From positions 1-57,264 of the forward strand of contig JAQUPG010000010.1 in assembly GCA_028716725.1 (NCBI GenBank): a DNA stretch of 57,264 nt. Reading direction: 5' to 3'. Under the pieces are notes generated by a model, which was not told the DNA's origin, ran no database searches, and saw only the letters and a program-made list of their open reading frames with translations. Of this stretch, positions 13,317 through 42,808 are shown in pieces; the stretch's first letter is position 1, and each line of letters begins with the position of its first letter. The position numbers and the translations under genes are program-made. The stretch is from Patescibacteria group bacterium (GTDB lineage Bacteria > Patescibacteriota > Patescibacteriia > Patescibacteriales > JAQTRU01).

Positions 13317-16229
13317 CTAATTTGCCCCTACGGTTACGCTTAACTCCGCGGTGGGCAGACCGCTTACGCTCGCCGCCACCTTTGAAGTTTTTCCTGAAGC
13401 CTCAAGATCGCTTAAATAAACGCTAAAACCGCCGATGGAAACATCGGGGCCGGAATCAACATAAACATTAACAAGCAATTCCTGGCCCGGATCCAAAACA
13501 TAAGAATTCAGCTTTATCTTATTGCTGCCGGCTACCGGCTTAGAAACTTTACTGCTGATACTTTTTCCGTCAGAAGCTTTCCCGACCCTTAAATTGCTGT
13601 AGCCGGCGCTATTAGAAAATCCGTCTCCGGAAGAATTAATCGTTAAATACTCTAATTTTAAGGCTTCCCCGCCGTTATTGGTTATTTTAAAGCTGGCGGC
13701 GTTATTATCATCTTTATTTAAAATTATCTGACCGGCCGCGTCAGCTTCAACTTGCGCCATGGCTCCGACAAAAGAAACTTCCTGGCTTGATGTATTTAAA
13801 CCGGAGATTTCCGTTTCCATGCCCGAGTTATAGCCTTGCGCCACTAAACCGGTAATCTGCAAATTGGCTTTATCTATTTTTAAATCTTTGATGGTATCAA
13901 CATAAACTTTTACCTCAATCCTCTTCCCGGCCAGCAACTTATAGGAAAAACCGTTAAAATCATAAGCGCTTTTATCGGGTTTCTCTACGGTAGCGATCTT
14001 TTTGCTGCCGATATAAACTTTAAGATTGGAAAAACCGTTATCATAAGTCAGGCTATTGCCGGCGCCGCCTTTATTAATAGACAGGCCGGTTATGGCAGTA
14101 TCGTCTCCAGCTGAAGATTCTAGATAAAAACTGGCGGCTATCACCTTGCTTTGGCCTTTCGCATAAATTTTTCCGGACAGGCTGTCGTTTGGATAAATTG
14201 AAACTTGAGACAAAATAACTTTAAAAATTTCTCCTTTAATATCAATCGCGTTGGTTAAGAAGATGTTATCCGCCGTCCGGTGGTTTACTTTATTGAGAAT
14301 CAACTGGTAGGTATAACCGTCCTGCGATCTGGCCGGCATTGTAGTCAAAAAAGCCAAAGCTAAATTATTTTTAGGCAGAAGCGTCTTATCGGCAATATTT
14401 ATATTTACCTGCCCGGCGCTCAAAGCCGGGCCGCCAATCTGGCCTAAAATTTCGCCCGTGTCATAATCCACCACGTAGACTTCCTTGTCTAAATTAGCTG
14501 CGCCGGAGCTCTTAACCAGGCTTAAGTCAAGGCTGTCTATATAAATTTCCTGATTGCCGTTTCTCACTTCAAATACGCCGATAATAGTGCCGGTTTTTTG
14601 CGCAAAGACCTTTTTGCTGGCTTCCAATTTTTTAGCCACCACCCCCAAGTTCTTTCTAACTATGTCTATATTTTCCTCTGAATTGGAATAATTAACTTTA
14701 AGCCCGAAACTATTGGCCGAACCGACGATATTGGCGTTAATCATAGCCAGATTAAGGCTCCGGCCGTCGCCCTCATTAAGGCTGGCGGAAACCGTAAAAA
14801 TTTCTTCCGAGCTTTTTTTGATCTTATAACCGGCGAGGTCAAACAAAACCTGCCTTTCTTCGCCGACCGAGTTGGCTCGGGCAACGATTTTTCCCTTTTC
14901 GTTTTCCATAACCAAGTTGAAAAAACTGCTCGGCAAAGCCGAACCCTGGATTTTAACGGTTAAACTATTTATTAAAATATCCTCATTCCCGGAAATTTCG
15001 CTGATTTTGAATTTACCTATAATCTGCTCCGGCTCCCCGATAATCGCCTGCCGGTTGGCTTCGCCAACCGTAAGCTCCTCGATTTTGGCCTGGCCTAAAA
15101 CGTCCAAAGCGCTGACCAAATTGAAAGATCCGCCCATTATCGGAAAATTTCCGCTAACAACGCCGCTGGAACTAATATCGGAAGCCTGATTGATCGTTAC
15201 CTGCAAATCATGGCTGGTGCATGCCGGGCAATCAACCAAATCAACCCAAAAATAAATCTTTTTTGTCTCTCCCGCGCCAATAACCAAGGGGCTGTCCTTG
15301 AAATTGAAGCTTGCCGTTTTGTTATTTATTGCCGGAGTAATCCCTAAATCAATCTGATTCTCGCCGCTTAAATGAATATTGGTTAAAATTTGTTCGGAAA
15401 ATATCCCCTTTAAACTAAAATCCAGGCGGCTCACTTCCGCCTGCTCGGTTCCTGATTTTAAATTAAAAACAGCCAACAAGTTATTGGTAGTGGCCAAGGG
15501 CAGGTTATTGCCTCCTTTTGGGCTGCTTGAATCAAGAGCAACAGCCAAACTGGTGGTAGCCGAAGCTAGGCCGATATCCAAGCCAACGTCTTCGTAGCTG
15601 CCGGTAGTTAAATCATTCAAATCATCTTCCTCAACTATATTAATATCATCCCATTTAAAACCAAGCTTAATGAAGTCCGCGGCCGACTTAATCGGCGTTT
15701 TTAATTTGTCTTTTACGTAATAAACCGCCGAACTCACCTTACTCTTCACTAATTCATAATCGGTTAATTTATAAATGACTAATTTAACTTCTTCATAAGT
15801 CGAAGAGGCGTATTGCTCCAAATCGGCTTTATTTAGATTGGCGATATCGCTCCATTTAAAACCCAAATTAGTAAAATCCCGGGCCGATTCAATTAAAACC
15901 TTTTTTCCGTTTTTAATGTAATAAACGGCCGGGTTATCCTTTTCCTTGACTAATTGCATATCCGGCCACTTATCGAGATCGGCCTGGCTGATTATTTTTA
16001 TGTCTGACCATTTATTGCCATAGGATAAAAAAGCCTCAGCGTTAACGTAGGCCTTTTTAAAACCGCGCACATGGTCTAAATAATAAACCGCCGGGTTATC
16101 AGCCGTTTTCACCTGCTTAAAACTCGGATCAAGGCCGAAAGCGGCCCGAGCTTTGCTTTGAGTAACAAAAACCAAGACCGAGATAAAAGTAAAAACAATG
16201 GCAGTAAAAATTATTCTATTAAACCGCAT
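13317..16229 (-). CDS. large exported surface/S-layer-like protein with three N-terminal repeats
   Basis: N-terminal signal segment; tandem modules with DNPAVYYLDH.../DNPAVYYIKNGK.../SSAVYYVKDK..., each ending in (K/N)WSDI or KWDDI; beta-rich remainder. Confidence 0.82.
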   Translation of the reverse strand: MRFNRIIFTAIVFTFISVLVFVTQSKARAAFGLDPSFKQVKTADNPAVYYLDHVRGFKKAYVNAEAFLSYGNKWSDIKIISQADLDKWPDMQLVKEKDNPAVYYIKNGKKVLIESARDFTNLGFKWSDIANLNKADLEQYASSTYEEVKLVIYKLTDYELVKSKVSSAVYYVKDKLKTPIKSAADFIKLGFKWDDINIVEEDDLNDLTTGSYEDVGLDIGLASATTSLAVALDSSSPKGGNNLPLATTNNLLAVFNLKSGTEQAEVSRLDFSLKGIFSEQILTNIHLSGENQIDLGITPAINNKTASFNFKDSPLVIGAGETKKIYFWVDLVDCPACTSHDLQVTINQASDISSSGVVSGNFPIMGGSFNLVSALDVLGQAKIEELTVGEANRQAIIGEPEQIIGKFKISEISGNEDILINSLTVKIQGSALPSSFFNLVMENEKGKIVARANSVGEERQVLFDLAGYKIKKSSEEIFTVSASLNEGDGRSLNLAMINANIVGSANSFGLKVNYSNSEENIDIVRKNLGVVAKKLEASKKVFAQKTGTIIGVFEVRNGNQEIYIDSLDLSLVKSSGAANLDKEVYVVDYDTGEILGQIGGPALSAGQVNINIADKTLLPKNNLALAFLTTMPARSQDGYTYQLILNKVNHRTADNIFLTNAIDIKGEIFKVILSQVSIYPNDSLSGKIYAKGQSKVIAASFYLESSAGDDTAITGLSINKGGAGNSLTYDNGFSNLKVYIGSKKIATVEKPDKSAYDFNGFSYKLLAGKRIEVKVYVDTIKDLKIDKANLQITGLVAQGYNSGMETEISGLNTSSQEVSFVGAMAQVEADAAGQIILNKDDNNAASFKITNNGGEALKLEYLTINSSGDGFSNSAGYSNLRVGKASDGKSISSKVSKPVAGSNKIKLNSYVLDPGQELLVNVYVDSGPDVSIGGFSVYLSDLEASGKTSKVAASVSGLPTAELSVTVGAN

Positions 16230-22257: not shown

Positions 22258-23862
22258 TTAGAACAAGCTCCGGCCCGTCATTTCTTTCGGCTTAGTTATC
22301 CCCATTATCTTGAGCACGGTCGGGGCTACATCAGATAAAATTCCCTGCGGCTTAACTAAACTTAAATCACTGCCCGGGATTTCCTTAAAACCGATAGTTT
22401 TACCTTCGAATTGCTTTCCAATGAGAATAAAGGGCACGGGGTTGGTTGTATGTTCTTTGTCTATCATTCCGGTCTGCATATTAAACATCATCTCGGCATT
22501 GCCGTGGTCGGCCGTTACCAAAACCGTCCCGTTTTTGTCCAAAACTCTTTTAACAATTTTGCCAAGGCAATTATCAACTGCTTCAATTGCTTTTATGGCC
22601 GCGGCCAGGTTTCCCGTGTGCCCGACCATATCGGCGTTGGCAAAATTAATCAGAATGAAATCAAAAGTCTCGTTATCTATGGCCTTTATTACTTTCTCTG
22701 TGACTTCCGGAGCCGACATTTCCGGCTTTAAGTCATAACTCGTTACAGCGGGCGATGGCACTAATTCATGCTCCTCCCCTTCGCTTTTGGCTTCCCGGCC
22801 GCCGTTAAAAAAATAAGTGACGTGGGCATATTTTTCCGTTTCCGCAATCCGCAGTTGCTTTAATTTATTCTTAGAAATCACTTCCCCTAAAGTATTGGTA
22901 ATTATTTCGGGAGGAAAGGCGACTTCAGCCGGCAACTCTTTTTCGTATTCGGTAAAGCCGGCAAAAAATAAATTATCAAAATATTTCCAGCCGGAGAATT
23001 TATTAAAACCAGGCAGGACAAAAGCCCTGGTAATCTGCCTGGCCCGGTCCGGGCGGAAATTAAAAAATATCAGGCTATCCCCGTTTTCCACTTGAGCCAC
23101 CGGCTTCCCCTTCTCCGTAATTACTGTCGGCACAAATTCTTCATCGTATATTTTTTTCTTGTAGCTCTCTTCTAAAACTTTTATGACTTCTTCGCCCTGA
23201 TTGCCCTGGCCTAGGGCAATTGCCGCATAAGCTTTAGCCGTCCTGTCCCAATGGTTATCCCGGTCCATAGCGTAAAACCGGCCGGAAACCGTGGCAATTT
23301 TACCTATCCCGCACTCCGCGATGTAATGGTTCAGGTCCTTCATAAAGCCAAGGCCGCTGTTATAAGGAGTGTCCCGGCCGTCAAGAATAACATGGATATA
23401 AGCTTCTTTAACTTTTCTTTCTTTTGCCAGGGCCAGCAGGGCGTACAGATGCTCAATTGAAGCATGGACATTGCCCGAAGAAATCAATCCTAAAAAATGC
23501 AGTTTAGAATTATTAGTCTTGGCATGGTCAATCGCTTTCAGAAAAACTTCATTTTTATAAAAACTATTATCACTTATAGCTTTGTTAATCCTGGGCAGGT
23601 CCTGATAAATAATCTTGCCCAGCCCCAGATTAAGATGCCCGACTTCGCTATTCCCGGCTTCGCCCCAGGGCAGACCCACGGCTTCGCCCGAAGCCCGCAG
23701 GGTCATAGAGGGGTAGTGAGCGACCAAATCGTTAAAATTGGGAGTGTTGGCCTGGCTGATGGCGTTCCCGCTATAGGGCTGGGTCACTCCCCAGCCGTCA
23801 AGCACAATCAAAACAACGGGTTTGGGCCTATTTGTTTGTGTTTTATTTTCCGCCATGTACAA
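22258..23862 (-). CDS. gpmI: 2,3-bisphosphoglycerate-independent phosphoglycerate mutase (copy 1)
   Basis: VVLIVLDGWG, GNSEVGHLNLG, DGRDTPYNSGLGF, FAGFTEYEKELP, ADHGNAEMM. Confidence 0.96.
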   Translation of the reverse strand: MYMAENKTQTNRPKPVVLIVLDGWGVTQPYSGNAISQANTPNFNDLVAHYPSMTLRASGEAVGLPWGEAGNSEVGHLNLGLGKIIYQDLPRINKAISDNSFYKNEVFLKAIDHAKTNNSKLHFLGLISSGNVHASIEHLYALLALAKERKVKEAYIHVILDGRDTPYNSGLGFMKDLNHYIAECGIGKIATVSGRFYAMDRDNHWDRTAKAYAAIALGQGNQGEEVIKVLEESYKKKIYDEEFVPTVITEKGKPVAQVENGDSLIFFNFRPDRARQITRAFVLPGFNKFSGWKYFDNLFFAGFTEYEKELPAEVAFPPEIITNTLGEVISKNKLKQLRIAETEKYAHVTYFFNGGREAKSEGEEHELVPSPAVTSYDLKPEMSAPEVTEKVIKAIDNETFDFILINFANADMVGHTGNLAAAIKAIEAVDNCLGKIVKRVLDKNGTVLVTADHGNAEMMFNMQTGMIDKEHTTNPVPFILIGKQFEGKTIGFKEIPGSDLSLVKPQGILSDVAPTVLKIMGITKPKEMTGRSLF

Positions 23863-23874
23863 AGATATTTTATA

Positions 23875-25440
23875 TTATTTTATTAAACTTTCTCCTGCCA
23901 TTTCTTTCGGCTTCTTTCTGCCCATTAACTCCAAAATGGTCGGGGCAATATCCCCCAAAACTCCTCCTTCTCTTAGCCCGATTTTCTTCGCCCCCCTATA
24001 TTGGTTATTGACTATAATAAAAGGCACGGGGTTAATTGAATGCTCGGTATCAATCTCCCCGGTTTCCAGGTTTATCATCTCCTCTATGTTGCCATGGTCA
24101 GCAGTTACGATAACGGTCCCGCCAATTTCCAAATAAGCTTTTACAATCTGCCCCAGGCATTTATCAACTTCATGGCAGCATTTTATGCCCGCTTCCAAAT
24201 TCCCGGTATGGCCGATCATATCCGGCGCGGCAAAATTAAGGACGGTAAAGTCATATTTTTTCTTTTTAAGGTCATAGATTATCATTTTTGCCAATTCTTT
24301 TGACTCCATGGCTGGCGTGGCATCGTAAGATTTAACGTCCGGAGAAGCAATTACCGCCTGGTCTTCGCCGTTAACCCGGCCGGAATAACCGCCGTTAAAA
24401 AAGTAAGTGACATGGGCGTATTTTTCCGTTTCCGCCAAATAAAGCTGCTTTATGTCCGATAATACCATGGGTACGGTTTGCTTTAAATCAACGCTGGGAA
24501 AAGCGGAAATAATAGAGTCTAAATCCGGGCCGAAATCAGTCATGGCCACAAAACATAAATTCTTTAAGACCTTGCTTCTCTTAAAGGAGCCCGGGTTATC
24601 ATCGTTAAAATCTTTCTGGACAAAAACCTTAGCCAGTTGCCTGGCCCGGTCAGACCGCAAATTAAAAAATATAACGCTATCCCCGTCTTCTATCCGCCCG
24701 GCCTGATTTATTATATATGGTTCAATAAATTCGTCATTATCCCCCTTATTATAACTCTCGCTTATAGCGGCGCGGGCGCTTTCCGCCTGGTGGCCCTTGC
24801 CTAAAAGCAAGGCATCGTAAGCCATCTTTGTCCTTTCCCATTTCTTTTTCCGGTCCATGGCGTAAAATCTTCCTATAATTGTGGCAATCTGCTCTCTATT
24901 TTTAAAGCTGCGTTCCATATCCTCTATCAGTTTTAAAGCGGCGTATTTCGGAGAATCCCGGCCATCTGTAAACAAATGCAAATAAATATTATTTATCTTT
25001 TCCTTTTGAAGTAAGGTTAATAAGGCCAGAATATGGTCTGGTTCGCTATGAGCACTCATACCGTTGGAAAGCATGCCCATTAAATGCATTTTTGACTTAT
25101 TGGCTCCCGCGTGCTTTATCGCTTCCAAGAAGGCCGTATTTTTGAAAAAAGTTCCGTCATTGATGCTTTTAGAAATCTTGACCGCGTCCTGTTCAACCAC
25201 CCGGCCGGCACCGATATTCATATGCCCAGCTTCGCTGTTGCCGTCCTGTTTTGGTGGCAAGCCGACGTAGCGACCATGGGCATGCAACTCCGTAAAAGGA
25301 TATTTTTTTGATATCCCATTCATTGTCGGTGTTTCTGCCAAAGTCACGGCATTGCCTTTATTTGGCTTGGCCAAACCCCAACCGTCAAGAATTATAAGTA
25401 TCATCGGCAAATTATTTTTTTTACTAAATTCTTTCTTCAT
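23875..25440 (-). CDS. gpmI: 2,3-bisphosphoglycerate-independent phosphoglycerate mutase (copy 2)
   Basis: LIILDGWGLA, GNSEAGHMNIGAGR, TDGRDSPKYAAL, ADHGNIEEMIN. Confidence 0.96.
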   Translation of the reverse strand: MKKEFSKKNNLPMILIILDGWGLAKPNKGNAVTLAETPTMNGISKKYPFTELHAHGRYVGLPPKQDGNSEAGHMNIGAGRVVEQDAVKISKSINDGTFFKNTAFLEAIKHAGANKSKMHLMGMLSNGMSAHSEPDHILALLTLLQKEKINNIYLHLFTDGRDSPKYAALKLIEDMERSFKNREQIATIIGRFYAMDRKKKWERTKMAYDALLLGKGHQAESARAAISESYNKGDNDEFIEPYIINQAGRIEDGDSVIFFNLRSDRARQLAKVFVQKDFNDDNPGSFKRSKVLKNLCFVAMTDFGPDLDSIISAFPSVDLKQTVPMVLSDIKQLYLAETEKYAHVTYFFNGGYSGRVNGEDQAVIASPDVKSYDATPAMESKELAKMIIYDLKKKKYDFTVLNFAAPDMIGHTGNLEAGIKCCHEVDKCLGQIVKAYLEIGGTVIVTADHGNIEEMINLETGEIDTEHSINPVPFIIVNNQYRGAKKIGLREGGVLGDIAPTILELMGRKKPKEMAGESLIK

Positions 25441-35548: not shown

Positions 35549-36442
35549 TTATTTTCTCGAAAACTCGCACCCGCAATAATCCTGCCGGTAAAGCCCGAGT
35601 TTTTTACATAAACAGGATGATTTTTTAAAGCCGTCTTGTTTTTTAAAATCCCTGTCCAAAAACTTTACCTTATATTTCCTTTCCATCCCCTGGCCAAGCT
35701 GGCTGATTGTTTTGGCATCTTTATGCGGACTAATGGTTAGAGTGGTGGTAAATAAAGCAAAACTTTTCTTTTGAGCAATTTTTGCCGTTTTTTCTAATCT
35801 ATCTCGATAGCAGATCCGACAACGCTCCCCTCTTTCCAAATCTTTTTCATAACCTTTTATTTTTTTAAGCCAGGCCCCGTGGTCATATTTTTCTAAAATT
35901 AATTTAAGCCGGGAAATAGCCGCGATTTTTTTAGCTTCCCCCAACCTTTTCTTATACTCGCTTTCCGGATAAATATTGGGATTATAAAAATATAAAATCA
36001 CGTCATAATCTTTTTTTAAAACCTGGGCGACATAAGCCCCGCAGCCGGCGCAGCAAATATGAAGCAGAAGTTTCGGCTTGGTTTTGCGAAACCTATAAAA
36101 AGCATAGGCAATGGCAGCAATTATACCTAACGCCCCGGCTAATAAATCAAGAAGACTTGCTTCACGGCTTGGAATAAAAGTCTGGAGATACTCGCCGGCC
36201 AAAGCGTAGAAAAAACTAAAGAAAAAGCTGAACACGGCTAAAATTTTAAAATTCATCTTTCTGAATTCCCGCCCAAATAAAATAATTAAATAGGCCAGAA
36301 CCCCGAACAAAACAAAATGAACCCCTTTATCAAAAAAAGTAATTTTTTGGGGTTCACCGCTTATGGGCAGGGGCATAGTGAGCGAAACAAAAATAAGGAA
36401 AGCCCAGCATAAAATTAGATAAAACTTTACTAATTTAGCCAT
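35549..36442 (-). CDS. queH: VanZ-like / epoxyqueuosine reductase QueH fusion
   Basis: N-term VanZ-like FFDKGVHFVLFGVLAY...GEYLQTFIPSREASLLDLLAGALG; C-term QueH LLLHICCAGC, NPNIYPESEYKKRL, ERCRICYRDRL, FTTTLTISPHKD, FKKSSCLCKKLGLYRQDYCGCEFS. Confidence 0.9.
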   Translation of the reverse strand: MAKLVKFYLILCWAFLIFVSLTMPLPISGEPQKITFFDKGVHFVLFGVLAYLIILFGREFRKMNFKILAVFSFFFSFFYALAGEYLQTFIPSREASLLDLLAGALGIIAAIAYAFYRFRKTKPKLLLHICCAGCGAYVAQVLKKDYDVILYFYNPNIYPESEYKKRLGEAKKIAAISRLKLILEKYDHGAWLKKIKGYEKDLERGERCRICYRDRLEKTAKIAQKKSFALFTTTLTISPHKDAKTISQLGQGMERKYKVKFLDRDFKKQDGFKKSSCLCKKLGLYRQDYCGCEFSRK

Positions 36443-36847: not shown

Positions 36848-37447
36848 TTATTGCAGAGCCTTAACGATTTCCTCTCCGAATTCCCGGGCCGAGGCCGGGC
36901 CCTCGGCCGTAATAATTTTCCCGTCCACGGCTACGCTTTGAGAAGAAAATGTCGCCCCGCCCTTTTCGATTGTTTCGCGCACACCCGACCAGCCGGCAGC
37001 GGTTTTACCTTCTAGAACTCCGGCCTGGGCGAGAATCGCCGAAGCGGCGCAGATAGCCGTGGTAATTTTTCCTTCCTGATAAAACTTTTTCGCCAGAATC
37101 TGTAAGCTCTCATCGTCAATAATCTCCAGCATTCCCGGGCCGCCGACAAAAACCACGGCGTCGAATTTATCCGGCTCGGCCTGCCCGACGGTTAAATCAA
37201 TATTAACCTCTAACCCCTCAGCGCCGATCGCGGTTCCGGACTGAATTGAAGCCACCTGCACTTTTACCCCGGCTTCTTCAAAAACTTTTCTTGGTTCGCT
37301 ATATTCGGCATCGCGAAAATCCCGCGGCGCCACCACCATTAAAATATTAGTTCCGTTCATATTTTCTTTGGGCTGTTTTAGTTCCGATCTTATCCAACAG
37401 CCAGTTAATAATAAAAATAATATTAAAATTAAAATCATCTTCCTCAT
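36848..37447 (-). CDS. DJ-1/PfpI family putative lipoprotein
   Basis: Lipobox MILILILFLLLTGC; FDAVVFVGGPGMLEI, TTAICAASAILAQAGVLEGKTAAGW. Confidence 0.88.
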   Translation of the reverse strand: MRKMILILILFLLLTGCWIRSELKQPKENMNGTNILMVVAPRDFRDAEYSEPRKVFEEAGVKVQVASIQSGTAIGAEGLEVNIDLTVGQAEPDKFDAVVFVGGPGMLEIIDDESLQILAKKFYQEGKITTAICAASAILAQAGVLEGKTAAGWSGVRETIEKGGATFSSQSVAVDGKIITAEGPASAREFGEEIVKALQ

Positions 37448-38520
37448 ACGTTTTTCCTGTCTAAATAGCTAAAACCTATAACCAAAATCAACATCGTCAA
37501 AAATAAAATCAACAGGGCGAAAACCTTGCCTAAACTTTGTAAAAATAACCCGCTGGCCCCAAAAACCAAAGCCAGGGAGTAAAAGACAAGAACGGTTTTT
37601 CTCTGGCCTAACCCCAAATCAAACAAACGGAAATGAAGATGCCCGCGGTCAGCGAATTTAAACGGATTTTTGCCATTAACGAGACGGCGCAAAATCGTCC
37701 AAACCACGTCTAAAATCGGGATGCCCATAACGAGGAGGGCGATAGCAATCTTGCCTCCGGAAATAATGGCTAAAACCCCCAAAATAAAACCAAGAAGAAG
37801 CGAGCCGCCCTCGCCTAAAAAAATCTTAGCCGGATGCCAGTTAAAAACCAAAAAGCCCAAACAGCAGGCGGAAAAAATCAAAGCGGCAAGGCCGATATCC
37901 GGCTGATAATATTTTGTCGTAATCGTAAAAAGAAAAATTATAAAACCGCCGATAGCGCAGATGCCGCTTACTAAGCCGTCCAAACCGTCTAAAAGTTTTG
38001 TCGTGTACATCATGCCGAGAAGCCAGAGGATTATAAGCGAGTCCGAAAGAACCACGAAATAGCGCATAGCTCCGCCCCAGCTTGTTATTGGTATTTTCCA
38101 CTGATCCAGATACAGAAAGCCGCCCAAAGGATTAGTAATTTTCCCGATTTCCACCCCGCCGACGACCACGGCGAGGCCAGCCAGGACCGGAAAAATAAAT
38201 TGCCAGCCCGGTTTTAAATTATATTTATCATCCAGAAACCCGCCGACCATCAAAAAACAGGCGCCAATAAAAAACCCGAGCCAATGATGAACTTCTAAAT
38301 TGCCGGCCAGCAAACTGCCCCGGGTAAAATAAAGCATCAGAAAAAAAGCTAAAAAAATCGCCAATCCGCCCAAAAGCGGCACATTGGTTTTATGGATTTT
38401 CCTGTCCGAAACCGGCTTATCAATAATATTAAACCTGCCGGCTAAATATTTAACCAGCAAAGTGAAAATTACCGTAAGCAGTAAAGAAACAATAAAAATT
38501 ATCGGGTAATTTGTGTTCAT
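37444..38520 (-). CDS. MraY/WecA/TagO-type glycosyl-1-phosphate transferase
   Basis: KIHKTNVPLLGGLAIF, GFLDDKYNLKPGWQF, KLLDGLDGLVSGICAIG, NWHPAKIFLGEGGSLLLGF. Confidence 0.92.
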   Translation of the reverse strand: MNTNYPIIFIVSLLLTVIFTLLVKYLAGRFNIIDKPVSDRKIHKTNVPLLGGLAIFLAFFLMLYFTRGSLLAGNLEVHHWLGFFIGACFLMVGGFLDDKYNLKPGWQFIFPVLAGLAVVVGGVEIGKITNPLGGFLYLDQWKIPITSWGGAMRYFVVLSDSLIILWLLGMMYTTKLLDGLDGLVSGICAIGGFIIFLFTITTKYYQPDIGLAALIFSACCLGFLVFNWHPAKIFLGEGGSLLLGFILGVLAIISGGKIAIALLVMGIPILDVVWTILRRLVNGKNPFKFADRGHLHFRLFDLGLGQRKTVLVFYSLALVFGASGLFLQSLGKVFALLILFLTMLILVIGFSYLDRKNV

Positions 38521-39480: not shown

Positions 39481-42264
39481 TTATAACTGTCTCCCCTTTT
39501 CTATTTCAATTTTTGCTTCTTTATTTATTACCACCGTATCCCGCCTGACCAATTCGCCGGTTAAAATCTTATTGGCAATTTCATTTTCAATCTTATCCTG
39601 CAATAAACGGCGCAAGGGCCTGGCTCCGAATTTCGGGTCATACCCGGCCCCGGCCAATTTAACAACTCCTTCTTCTTCTGAGCGCAAACCGATGCCTTTG
39701 GCTAAAAGCATTTCCCCTATGCCATTCAACATTAATTTGGTAATGCTTACCACATTGTCCATAGTTAACGGCTTAAAAACAACAATGCCGTCAAACCGGT
39801 TTATCAACTCCGGCCGCATTATTTTATTAAGCTGCTTGTTGATTAAATCTTCTTTTATTTTCTCTATATCTGTGCCAGCCGCCACTTCATCCTGGATAAA
39901 AACCGAGCCGGCGTTGGACGTGGCAATAATAATAGAATTAGTAAAATCAATTGTCCGGCCCTGGCCGTCAGTTATCCGGCCGTCATCAAAACAAGACAAA
40001 AACAAATTTAGGATATCGGGATGGGCTTTTTCAAACTCATCCAGCAAAACCAGCGAAAACGGCTTTTTGCGCACGGCTTCAGTCAGATAGCCCCGGGTGC
40101 CGTCAACGTCCCCAATCATTTTTTTAACGCTGTCCGCCAATTGGTATTCGCTCATATCCAGCCGGATCATATAATCTTTGCTGCCAAAATAAATATCGGA
40201 AACGGTTTTCGCCAGTTCGGTTTTGCCGACTCCGGTCGGCCCGAGGAATAAAAAGTTGGCAATCGGACGCTTGCCCTCCCGGAGCGCCGCTCTGGCCCGG
40301 CGCAAACTGGCGGAGACGACGGAGACCGCCTCTTCCTGATTTATCATCTTCTCATGAATTTTTTCTTCCAGATTTAATAATTCCTTGCTTTCGCTAACCG
40401 TAATCTTATTGACCGGGACGCCGGTTATCTCGCTGACAGTCACGGAAACATCTTCGGCCGTGCAAAGAGAAGCGGTCGGATCGCTGGCCGCCCGACGGCC
40501 GACGCGGACGGCCGTTGCCTCTAAAATTTCTATAGCTTTAGCCGGCAGATATTTGTCGTGGATATATCTTGAAGAAAGGGAAACCGCCTGCCCGATCGCA
40601 TCATAGGAAAAATATACCCCATATTTCCCCTCCATAAGGCTAACTTTGCTTTCCGCCATAATAATCGCCTGGTTCCCGGCGGGCTCGTCAATTTTTACCT
40701 TCACTAAAATATCGCCCAGGGCTTTGCCTTCAATATATTTAGAATAATTTTCTACCGTGGCTGCGGTCAGGCAAAAGAGAGCCCTTCGGTTTAAAGCCTC
40801 GGCTAAAACTTCCGACAGCTCCAAGCTTTCTTCTCCGCCCCCGGTTATACCCACTATATTTTCTATATTTTCTATAAAAAGCACAATATTTCCGGCTTTT
40901 CTTATTTCATCAATTATGACCAAAAGTCTTTCCTGCGCCACTGCCGCGGTGGCTCCGCTTACTAACCGGGCTACATCCAGTTCCAAAAGCCTCTTATCCC
41001 TTAAAAATTTAGGCACATCTTCTTCAACCATCAGCTGGGCCAGGCCTTCCGCCATAGTCCTTTTACCGGCTCCCAAAGGGCCGACTAAAATTACGCCGGT
41101 CCGGCCGCTGGTAAAAGCCCCGAAAATATCCTCAATTTCCTTATCCCGGCCCACGCAAATGCCCAACCGGCCCCACTTAGCCGCCCGCGTCAGGTCATGG
41201 GAAAAATGGTTTAAAACCGGCGTAGCCACGGCGGTATAAGCCCGGTCCATAGTGCCGGCCGGCTTAAAACGGGCCGCTTTTTTATAGCCCCGGTAATTAT
41301 CCAGGAGACGCTCGTTCACCCTGAACCATTCGATAATATTTTTAATTTTATCCTCATCTACTTCCAAATCGTATAAAATCTCGGCTAAATTTTTATCGTG
41401 GCGCAAACAGGACAAAATCAGATTTAAAGCCTTTACTTTTTTTTGCCCGAGATTATAAGCCTGGGCGTAAGCTTCAATTAAAATCTCTTTTACTTCCTCG
41501 CTGATTTTTAAATCATTTTTTCCTTCCGAGGAAGCCGATTCTTTCAATAATTGGCTTTTAATTCTGGTTATCAATTTCCCCCCGTCTACATCCAGGCGGA
41601 CAAAAAGGGAAATTATTTCCTTGTCCCGCAATAAAGAAAAAAATAAATGGAGAGGCAAAAGCTCATTATGCCCGGACTTGGCCGCGAGCAGAAAAGCTTC
41701 TTCTACAACTTTCATCTCCTCCGGGCTGGCCGCCCGGGAAACGTCTATCTTGCCGGAAAACTTCTTCAACTCTTCCCAATTATCGGGAAGCTTTACCAGC
41801 CCCTTTTCCCCAACCGCCCGGAATTTTTTTATTTTTTCCTTCCTGGCTTCTTCTTGGCTTAAGCGGTAAATAATAAACATATCGGATAAAGCGCTAATCC
41901 AGAAAACCAAAATCAGCCAGTGCTTTACCCGCCAGAAGCTGAAAAGCTCTAAATAATCCCCGGCGCCGGCGCCCACCGGCCCTCCGGCTGACGAGGACCA
42001 GACCCAAAAAGCCAAAGCCGCCAAGCCGGCCAGGCTTATTGCGTAAGCAATTGAATTTATAACCAAATCAACGCTTTTTTTAAAATGCCTTAAATTTATT
42101 ACGGCCTTGCCCAAACTTAAGCCCCAATATAAAAATTTCCCGTCTAAAAAACTGCCGACGCCCATGCCGCCGCAGGCCGGGCATTTTAAGCCAAGCTTTT
42201 TTTCGCCCGTTCCCGAACAAACCGGGCAGACGATAAATGGCATTTTTGAATATTTATCCTCCAT
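39481..42264 (-). CDS. membrane-anchored Clp/ClpC-like double AAA+ ATPase with N-terminal CxxCxGxG zinc ribbon
   Basis: CPVCSGTGEKKLGLKCPACGGMG; TM segments; Clp-N-like repeats; NBD2 LGPTGVGKTELAK and LLDEFEKAHPDILNLFLSCFDDGRITDGQGR. Confidence 0.92.
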   Translation of the reverse strand: MEDKYSKMPFIVCPVCSGTGEKKLGLKCPACGGMGVGSFLDGKFLYWGLSLGKAVINLRHFKKSVDLVINSIAYAISLAGLAALAFWVWSSSAGGPVGAGAGDYLELFSFWRVKHWLILVFWISALSDMFIIYRLSQEEARKEKIKKFRAVGEKGLVKLPDNWEELKKFSGKIDVSRAASPEEMKVVEEAFLLAAKSGHNELLPLHLFFSLLRDKEIISLFVRLDVDGGKLITRIKSQLLKESASSEGKNDLKISEEVKEILIEAYAQAYNLGQKKVKALNLILSCLRHDKNLAEILYDLEVDEDKIKNIIEWFRVNERLLDNYRGYKKAARFKPAGTMDRAYTAVATPVLNHFSHDLTRAAKWGRLGICVGRDKEIEDIFGAFTSGRTGVILVGPLGAGKRTMAEGLAQLMVEEDVPKFLRDKRLLELDVARLVSGATAAVAQERLLVIIDEIRKAGNIVLFIENIENIVGITGGGEESLELSEVLAEALNRRALFCLTAATVENYSKYIEGKALGDILVKVKIDEPAGNQAIIMAESKVSLMEGKYGVYFSYDAIGQAVSLSSRYIHDKYLPAKAIEILEATAVRVGRRAASDPTASLCTAEDVSVTVSEITGVPVNKITVSESKELLNLEEKIHEKMINQEEAVSVVSASLRRARAALREGKRPIANFLFLGPTGVGKTELAKTVSDIYFGSKDYMIRLDMSEYQLADSVKKMIGDVDGTRGYLTEAVRKKPFSLVLLDEFEKAHPDILNLFLSCFDDGRITDGQGRTIDFTNSIIIATSNAGSVFIQDEVAAGTDIEKIKEDLINKQLNKIMRPELINRFDGIVVFKPLTMDNVVSITKLMLNGIGEMLLAKGIGLRSEEEGVVKLAGAGYDPKFGARPLRRLLQDKIENEIANKILTGELVRRDTVVINKEAKIEIEKGRQL

Positions 42265-42349: not shown

Positions 42350-42438
42350 AAATACGAATGATACTAATAAATACGAATTTATGTTTGCGGCATTAGTATT
42401 ATTAGTATCATTCGCATTCATTCATATATTAGTATCAT
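42350..42438. repeat. direct/inverted copies of ATTAGTATCATT / AATGATACTAAT
   Basis: ATACGAATGATACTAATAAATACGAAT...ATTAGTATTATTAGTATCATTCGCATTCATTCATATATTAGTATCATT. Confidence 0.8.
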
Positions 42439-42439
42439 T

Positions 42440-42808
42440 TTACAAAGCTAACTGAAAAATTATTTCGTAAATTGCCAGTATCGGCAGAACCAGCCAAAGG
42501 CCCAGGATAAGTAGCGCCAAGGCCAGCCAAAAGAGCATAAAAATCCCGCGGACGATTATCTGAAACAATCGGACAAAAAAACTTATTAAAATCCCGGCCC
42601 AGTCATATTGGGCATACATCGGCCGAAAAATATTTTTTATCCAGACAAAAAGCGCCAAAGACCTTTCCTTGTTAACTAAAAAATTCTTTAGCCCGATCGC
42701 TACCTGTTTTAAGCCGCGGCCATACCACCAGGCCGGAAAATAGATTATATCCCTTAGCAAATCCAAAACAATCTTTCCTCCGTATAACCCGATATTATTA
42801 CTTATCAT
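42440..42808 (-). CDS. small membrane protein, unknown function
   Basis: 122-aa ORF with two hydrophobic stretches. Confidence 0.65.
   Translation of the reverse strand: MISNNIGLYGGKIVLDLLRDIIYFPAWWYGRGLKQVAIGLKNFLVNKERSLALFVWIKNIFRPMYAQYDWAGILISFFVRLFQIIVRGIFMLFWLALALLILGLWLVLPILAIYEIIFQLAL

Follow-up and report, generated by a model that had tools for sequence, protein, structure and literature searches.

A family of predicted membrane-anchored Clp/Hsp100 proteins in Patescibacteria without canonical pore-loop or ClpP-docking motifs

Motif scoring and phylogeny indicate that mClp, a Clp/Hsp100 AAA+ protein of 927 aa encoded in a 57,264-nt stretch of Patescibacterial DNA (hereafter, the window), is a member of a monophyletic, Patescibacteria-wide family of membrane-anchored Clp proteins that has a fixed membrane partner, here named WWY, and carries neither threading nor ClpP-docking features. 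We propose, with a probability of roughly 0.55, that mClp would be a membrane-tethered, ClpP-independent ring, probably non-threading and driven by its second ATPase domain (NBD2), that cooperates with WWY in acting on a division or envelope complex. In this analysis, the family is known from Patescibacteria only, and the sample for the WWY profile search consisted of 380 Patescibacteria genomes. No description of the family was found in the searchable literature, which is itself incomplete and leaves most subscription papers outside it, and Clp goes unmentioned in the main text of one study on the protein families of CPR bacteria.

Domain architecture of mClp

The mClp gene, including its start and stop codons, occupies positions 39481..42264 on the minus strand, as do all mClp features described below. 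The original prediction gave exactly this open reading frame, without its strand, and the CPVCSGTG...CPACGGMG ribbon, GPLGAGKRT and VLFIENIENIVG that it listed are present as written. The annotated ATG is immediately followed by a GGAGG (window 42243, minus strand). Since another in-frame ATG, that of Met8, comes 14 nt after this GGAGG, translation may actually begin there.

The protein begins with a zinc-ribbon-like CxxC...CxxC segment (residues 13-31; 42172..42228), identified from both CxxC pairs in the sequence, followed by two predicted transmembrane (TM) helices at residues 67-85 (42010..42066) and 115-133 (41866..41922), which appear in the AlphaFold2 (AF2) model as helices 53-93 and 116-140. 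These helices support the membrane anchoring that had been proposed. Since the N-terminal CxxC...CxxC segment precedes both of them, ribbon and AAA+ rings would be expected on one and the same side of the membrane, the cytoplasmic one. The ribbon was rejected as a family-defining feature: it is common in the window's order, where both CxxC pairs are found in 36 of 47 sequences (some of them contig fragments), and only 10 of 60 distant members have them.

Next comes a Clp_N-like region (residues 175-332; 41269..41742), which is all-helical in the model. The earlier reading of this region as Clp-N-like is supported by phmmer, which aligns residues 186-597 to the N-domain and NBD1 of ClpC, although the Pfam Clp_N match is weak (E 0.0017, narrowly missing the Pfam cut-off). 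The remainder consists of NBD1 (residues 350-600; 40465..41217), an AAA+ domain assigned by motif alignment and dN/dS, and NBD2 (residues 601-916; 39517..40464), assigned by Pfam and motif alignment. The Pfam matches are AAA_2, AAA_lid_9 and ClpB_D2-small, and the two AAA+ domains with a C-terminal ClpB_D2-small domain place mClp in Clp/Hsp100 class I. Residues 186-916 align by phmmer with ClpC, ClpB and ClpA, and the AF2 model (mean pLDDT 82) has Staphylococcus aureus and Bacillus subtilis ClpC as its nearest PDB structures in Foldseek. Against the ClpB equivalog TIGR03346 (NCBIfam), mClp scores 538 bits, far below the cut-off of 1232. Pfam finds no peptidase domain in mClp, which thus lacks the C-terminal zinc metalloprotease of FtsH. 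We also considered a defence-system or phage origin and rejected it, as PHROGs and PADLOC returned only generic AAA hits and one broad PHROGs ‘ATP-dependent protease’ family covering the Clp part.

The source genome (1.08 Mb, 17 contigs) encodes ClpP. It also has one ClpC-type protein of the ordinary kind, whose NBD1 is intact and which carries both pore loops together with a ClpP loop reading YSIGF. A scan of related genomes with a neighbouring protein matched mostly Candidatus Falkowbacteria and other Patescibacteria.

Catalytic motifs, pore loops and the ClpP-docking loop

The Walker A motif of NBD1 reads GPLGAGKR (41059..41082), in which the T/S has become R and the Lys is kept, and Walker B reads VLFIENIENI (40855..40884), with EN in place of DE. 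The domain lacks the T/S and the catalytic Glu, as well as both arginine-finger Arg residues, and only NBD2 is complete. Orthologues are present in most relatives within the window's order, and all 42 of those compared retain the Walker A Lys, while the following T/S is found in only nine. None has the Walker B catalytic Glu, which is replaced by Asn in 33, and the arginine fingers (ALERRF) have given way to xLGxxx-like sequences. The dN/dS of NBD1 among same-genus orthologues is 0.05-0.08, the same as for NBD2, although dS is near 1 and the values are rough. As the altered motifs are fixed among orthologues and under purifying selection, NBD1 in this order is best described as a maintained pseudo-ATPase rather than a product of random decay, and retention of the Walker A Lys suggests that it probably still binds nucleotide. 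The degenerate NBD1 motifs of the original prediction are thus real and conserved, and the orthologues and dN/dS values rule out a sequencing variant or decay. Across the 102 full-length members of the family, the NBD1 Glu is present in 33, the Walker A T/S in 49 and the arginine pair (RR) in none; Walker A and B are both intact in 26, and by this count decay of NBD1 is not a defining trait of the family.

The catalytic residues of NBD2 are all intact in mClp, and they are almost invariant in the family: the Walker A K/T, Walker B Glu and sensor-1 Asn occur in all 102 full-length members and the Walker B Asp in 101, with the arginine finger and sensor-2 Arg found in 100 of the 101 that could be scored. 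The earlier description of NBD2 as canonical therefore holds for catalysis but fails for its pore loop, which is deleted in mClp and lost in nearly all members. At the pore-loop-1 position (IGDVDGTRGYL; 40084..40116), alignment of mClp (IGDVDGTRGYLTE) with Escherichia coli ClpB shows that GYVGY is missing, and the loop is five residues shorter in mClp (IGDVDGTRGYLTEAV) than in the E. coli ClpB sequence. The GY that remains aligns with the GGY before the helix in ClpB and not with the pore GYVG. A pore-loop aromatic is found in NBD2 of 3/102 members, compared with 11/11 canonical Clps, and in NBD1 of 0/101 scorable members, compared with 10/11.

Motif scoring of the 102 full-length members found no [LIV]G[FL] ClpP-docking loop in any of them. 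The same script scored 11 ordinary Clps as expected: it found the ClpP loop in E. coli ClpA and in the ClpC of the source genome, but not in ClpB. Although ClpP is encoded in the genome, the missing loop led us to reject mClp as its probable partner.

The WWY partner, gene neighbourhood and evolution

Directly upstream of mClp lies the gene for WWY (42440..42808, minus strand), a predicted helical membrane protein of 122 aa that went unmentioned in the original prediction and provides what we regard as the best functional clue. Its invariant residues are P25, WWY (27-29), N59, R80 and R87. Searches of Pfam, NCBIfam, PHROGs and PADLOC gave no match for WWY, and its AF2 model is a helical hairpin (pLDDT 89) with no significant match in the PDB. 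All 60 loci sampled across the phylum, representing many families, link WWY to mClp, either as the upstream gene (35 loci, one with a short ORF in between) or fused to the mClp N-terminus (25 loci). The fused proteins are about 810-910 aa long and, judging from the alignment ends, WWY stands in place of the ribbon and two-TM segment, so that it can serve as the mClp anchor. From the fusions and the adjacency, we infer that WWY and mClp are in physical contact.

Within the window's order, WWY is near mClp in 33/41 loci and is carried by 50/59 genomes, and it is missing mostly where a full mClp is also missing. Among genomes where mClp is present in full or in part, 45/48 have WWY, compared with 5/11 of those without mClp; contig edges or family f3, a variant described below, account for several of the mismatches. 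Of the 380 sampled genomes, an order-level profile finds WWY in 88 and a broader profile finds it in 198, the weakest hits of the broader profile having been partly checked. The gap between WWY and mClp contains an inverted repeat, TTAGTATCATTCGTATT (window 42351-42418), with seven near-exact copies in the genome and none of a reversed control pattern; it may be a small repeat of a mobile or regulatory nature.

Downstream of mClp is a gene for a WecA/MraY-like polyprenyl-phosphate sugar-1-phosphate transferase (GT4; 37444..38520, minus strand), identified by Pfam and neighbourhood comparison. Such a gene is no more than a few genes away from mClp in 32/41 same-order loci, and a second GT4 elsewhere in the source genome may be MraY. 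Other families of the class have the gene order mraZ-rsmH-ftsL-WWY-mClp-GT4, two same-order loci have the module after mraZ-rsmH-ftsL-PBP-murF, and elsewhere it is found near PBP2, ftsEX or ddl. Division or peptidoglycan genes occur within eight genes in 8/13 class loci and 20/60 distant loci, compared with 6/40 fixed control stretches from related genomes (Fisher p 0.002 and p 0.03, respectively, both uncorrected for relatedness). Leaving aside the WecA/MraY-like gene, the link is nearly absent from the window's own order (2/41 loci). The division-gene neighbourhood is therefore lineage-specific and weak over all distant loci.

Two families show variant arrangements. The short paralogues of f3, seen at five loci, are 607-646 aa long, keep the ribbon, TM helices, N-domain and NBD1, and end exactly before NBD2; this truncated Clp adjoins a WecA-like GT4 gene. 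At five further f3 loci, WWY stands without a Clp next to it; its neighbours there are YbeY, FtsA, FtsZ and two uncharacterised proteins. Because the short copies have no adjacent WWY, we suspected that WWY and NBD2 had been lost together in f3, but WWY is found by ftsA-ftsZ on other contigs of several f3 genomes, which rules this out. A further genome has WWY beside FtsE-FtsX at a contig edge. In f8, at four loci, the membrane Clp has no zinc ribbon and adjoins a divergently oriented canonical clp gene. The neighbourhoods with division and cell-wall genes, including WWY by FtsA-FtsZ and FtsE-FtsX, favour a putative envelope or division role for WWY-mClp.

The window has three further features of note, all on the minus strand. 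A single ORF at 35549-36442 combines a VanZ-like membrane domain with the epoxyqueuosine reductase QueH, which are separate ORFs in related loci. A tandem pair of complete cofactor-independent phosphoglycerate mutase (iPGM) genes is found at 22258-25440, and a 970-aa protein encoded at 13317-16229 has no match in Pfam or NCBIfam.

We built a quick tree (LG+G4) with the trait columns left out and rooted it on an outgroup of Patescibacterial ClpC types, the extra Clp of one relative, and E. coli ClpA and ClpB. The 99 full-length mClp members included form one side of a branch with SH-aLRT 100. When E. coli was left out of the tree, at least eight changes were counted at the NBD1 Glu. A branch of three fused members near the base keeps the NBD1 Walker motifs, and one of them, the early-branching L168, has a near-canonical NBD2 loop, PPGYPGYEEGG. 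From these positions, it seems that the threading features were lost early in the clade and that NBD1 catalysis was lost later and repeatedly.

Proposed mechanism, alternatives and precedents

Clp/Hsp100 proteins are textbook threading machines. As mClp keeps one engine, has lost the parts for grip and for handover to a protease, and has WWY nearly always adjacent or fused, its mechanism is probably unlike that of known Clp machines. We envisage a homo-hexamer at the membrane, on its cytoplasmic side, in which NBD2 would hydrolyse ATP and NBD1, in the window's order a conserved and probably nucleotide-binding or structural ring, would pass on the motion of NBD2 or hold the ring together. WWY and the N-domain would transmit the force to a membrane complex. 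The outcome would be that an envelope-synthesis or division complex is assembled, dissociated or switched, rather than that substrates are pulled through the pore for degradation.

The original prediction was of a membrane unfoldase with one engine and a structural first ring. Its one-engine reading fits the sequences of the window's order, where a degenerate but conserved first ring accompanies a catalytically intact second one; a threading unfoldase fits poorly with the loss of pore aromatics from both rings and of the ClpP loop. One could still imagine a threading chaperone anchored in the membrane, which would use non-aromatic or shifted pore residues to unfold or extract proteins that are exported or reside in the membrane, with NBD1 in a structural role. 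The double-ring Clp fold with ClpC as its best structural match and the intact NBD2 motor are consistent with this. Against a non-threading ring, gripping by other residues would be compatible with the loss of the aromatics, and L168 has its near-canonical loop. Nearly all same-order members also keep a Tyr directly before the helix that follows the shortened loop, but this Tyr aligns with that of GGYLTE in ClpB rather than with the pore Tyr of GYVG, and members outside the order do not retain it. With the pore aromatics lost family-wide in both rings, we consider threading unlikely.

Still less probable is that mClp is a membrane adaptor or pseudo-subunit, recruiting canonical ClpC-ClpP to the membrane through mixed rings or ClpC docking. 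Such a role would suit a genome that has ClpP and a ClpC type bearing the YSIGF loop, the clp gene beside the f8 members and an NBD1 without arginine fingers of its own. A passive adaptor, however, would have no need of the NBD2 arginine finger and full catalytic set retained in about 100/102 members, and adjacency to clpC is confined to a few lineages whereas linkage to WWY is general. That mClp is an ordinary ClpB/ClpC paralogue of a reduced genome with a randomly decaying first ring is very improbable: the NBD1 Walker motifs do vary much between lineages, but NBD1 has a dN/dS as low as that of NBD2, the replacement residues are conserved (Asn at the Glu position, as above) and the clade is phylum-wide with a fixed partner.

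Our preferred reading, a non-threading ring driven by NBD2, can be set against several known systems. Like the class I ClpP unfoldases ClpC and ClpA, mClp has a Clp_N-like region, two AAA+ rings and a D2 small domain, and ClpC structures are its top matches in both Foldseek and phmmer. It differs from them in having no ClpP loop, no pore-loop aromatics, a degenerate NBD1, a membrane anchor and the WWY partner. A ClpP-independent double-ring architecture is shared with the disaggregases ClpB, Hsp104, ClpG and ClpK, to which NBD2 is about as similar as it is to ClpC; mClp, however, is membrane-anchored and without any canonical pore loop. FtsH and Bcs1, which are not Clp-type, likewise have an AAA+ ring tethered by N-terminal TM helices, but FtsH carries its own protease, absent from mClp, and mClp has no Bcs1-specific domain. 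The membrane-anchored AAA ring of Bcs1 moves its substrate without threading (PMC11143374).

By analogy, the nearest precedent is provided by the Torsins, Clp/HSP100-related AAA+ proteins that act at the membrane without pore loops, are thought not to thread and have a dedicated membrane partner, LAP1 or LULL1 (PMC4999309, PMC5425593). From the TorsinA structure, its authors conclude that threading is unlikely (PMC4999309). The absence of pore loops is found in mClp as well. Torsins, however, have one AAA+ domain and are supplied with an arginine finger by LAP1 or LULL1, whereas mClp is double-ringed, with an arginine finger of its own in NBD2; LAP1 and LULL1 are AAA-like, whereas WWY is a small helical protein, modelled as a hairpin, without an AAA fold. 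As Torsins have no arginine finger of their own, mClp may work like a Torsin but is not one. A bolder and more doubtful version, which we offer tentatively, is that mClp and WWY would be a phylum-wide bacterial counterpart in kind to Torsins, in which the second ring alone would mechanically remodel a membrane complex of division or envelope synthesis and both threading and partnership with a protease would have been given up.

A large clade of membrane-tethered proteins that retain the motor although neither ring has kept its grip, and that are linked to WWY, would be a natural test of what a non-threading ring can do. The series that runs from the near-canonical L168 to the full pseudo-NBD1 of the window's mClp would allow loss of the first engine to be tested stepwise. 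Together, mClp and WWY would also give two conserved genes as a handle on the envelope biology of Patescibacteria, a major group of bacteria about whose machinery for division and the cell surface little is known.
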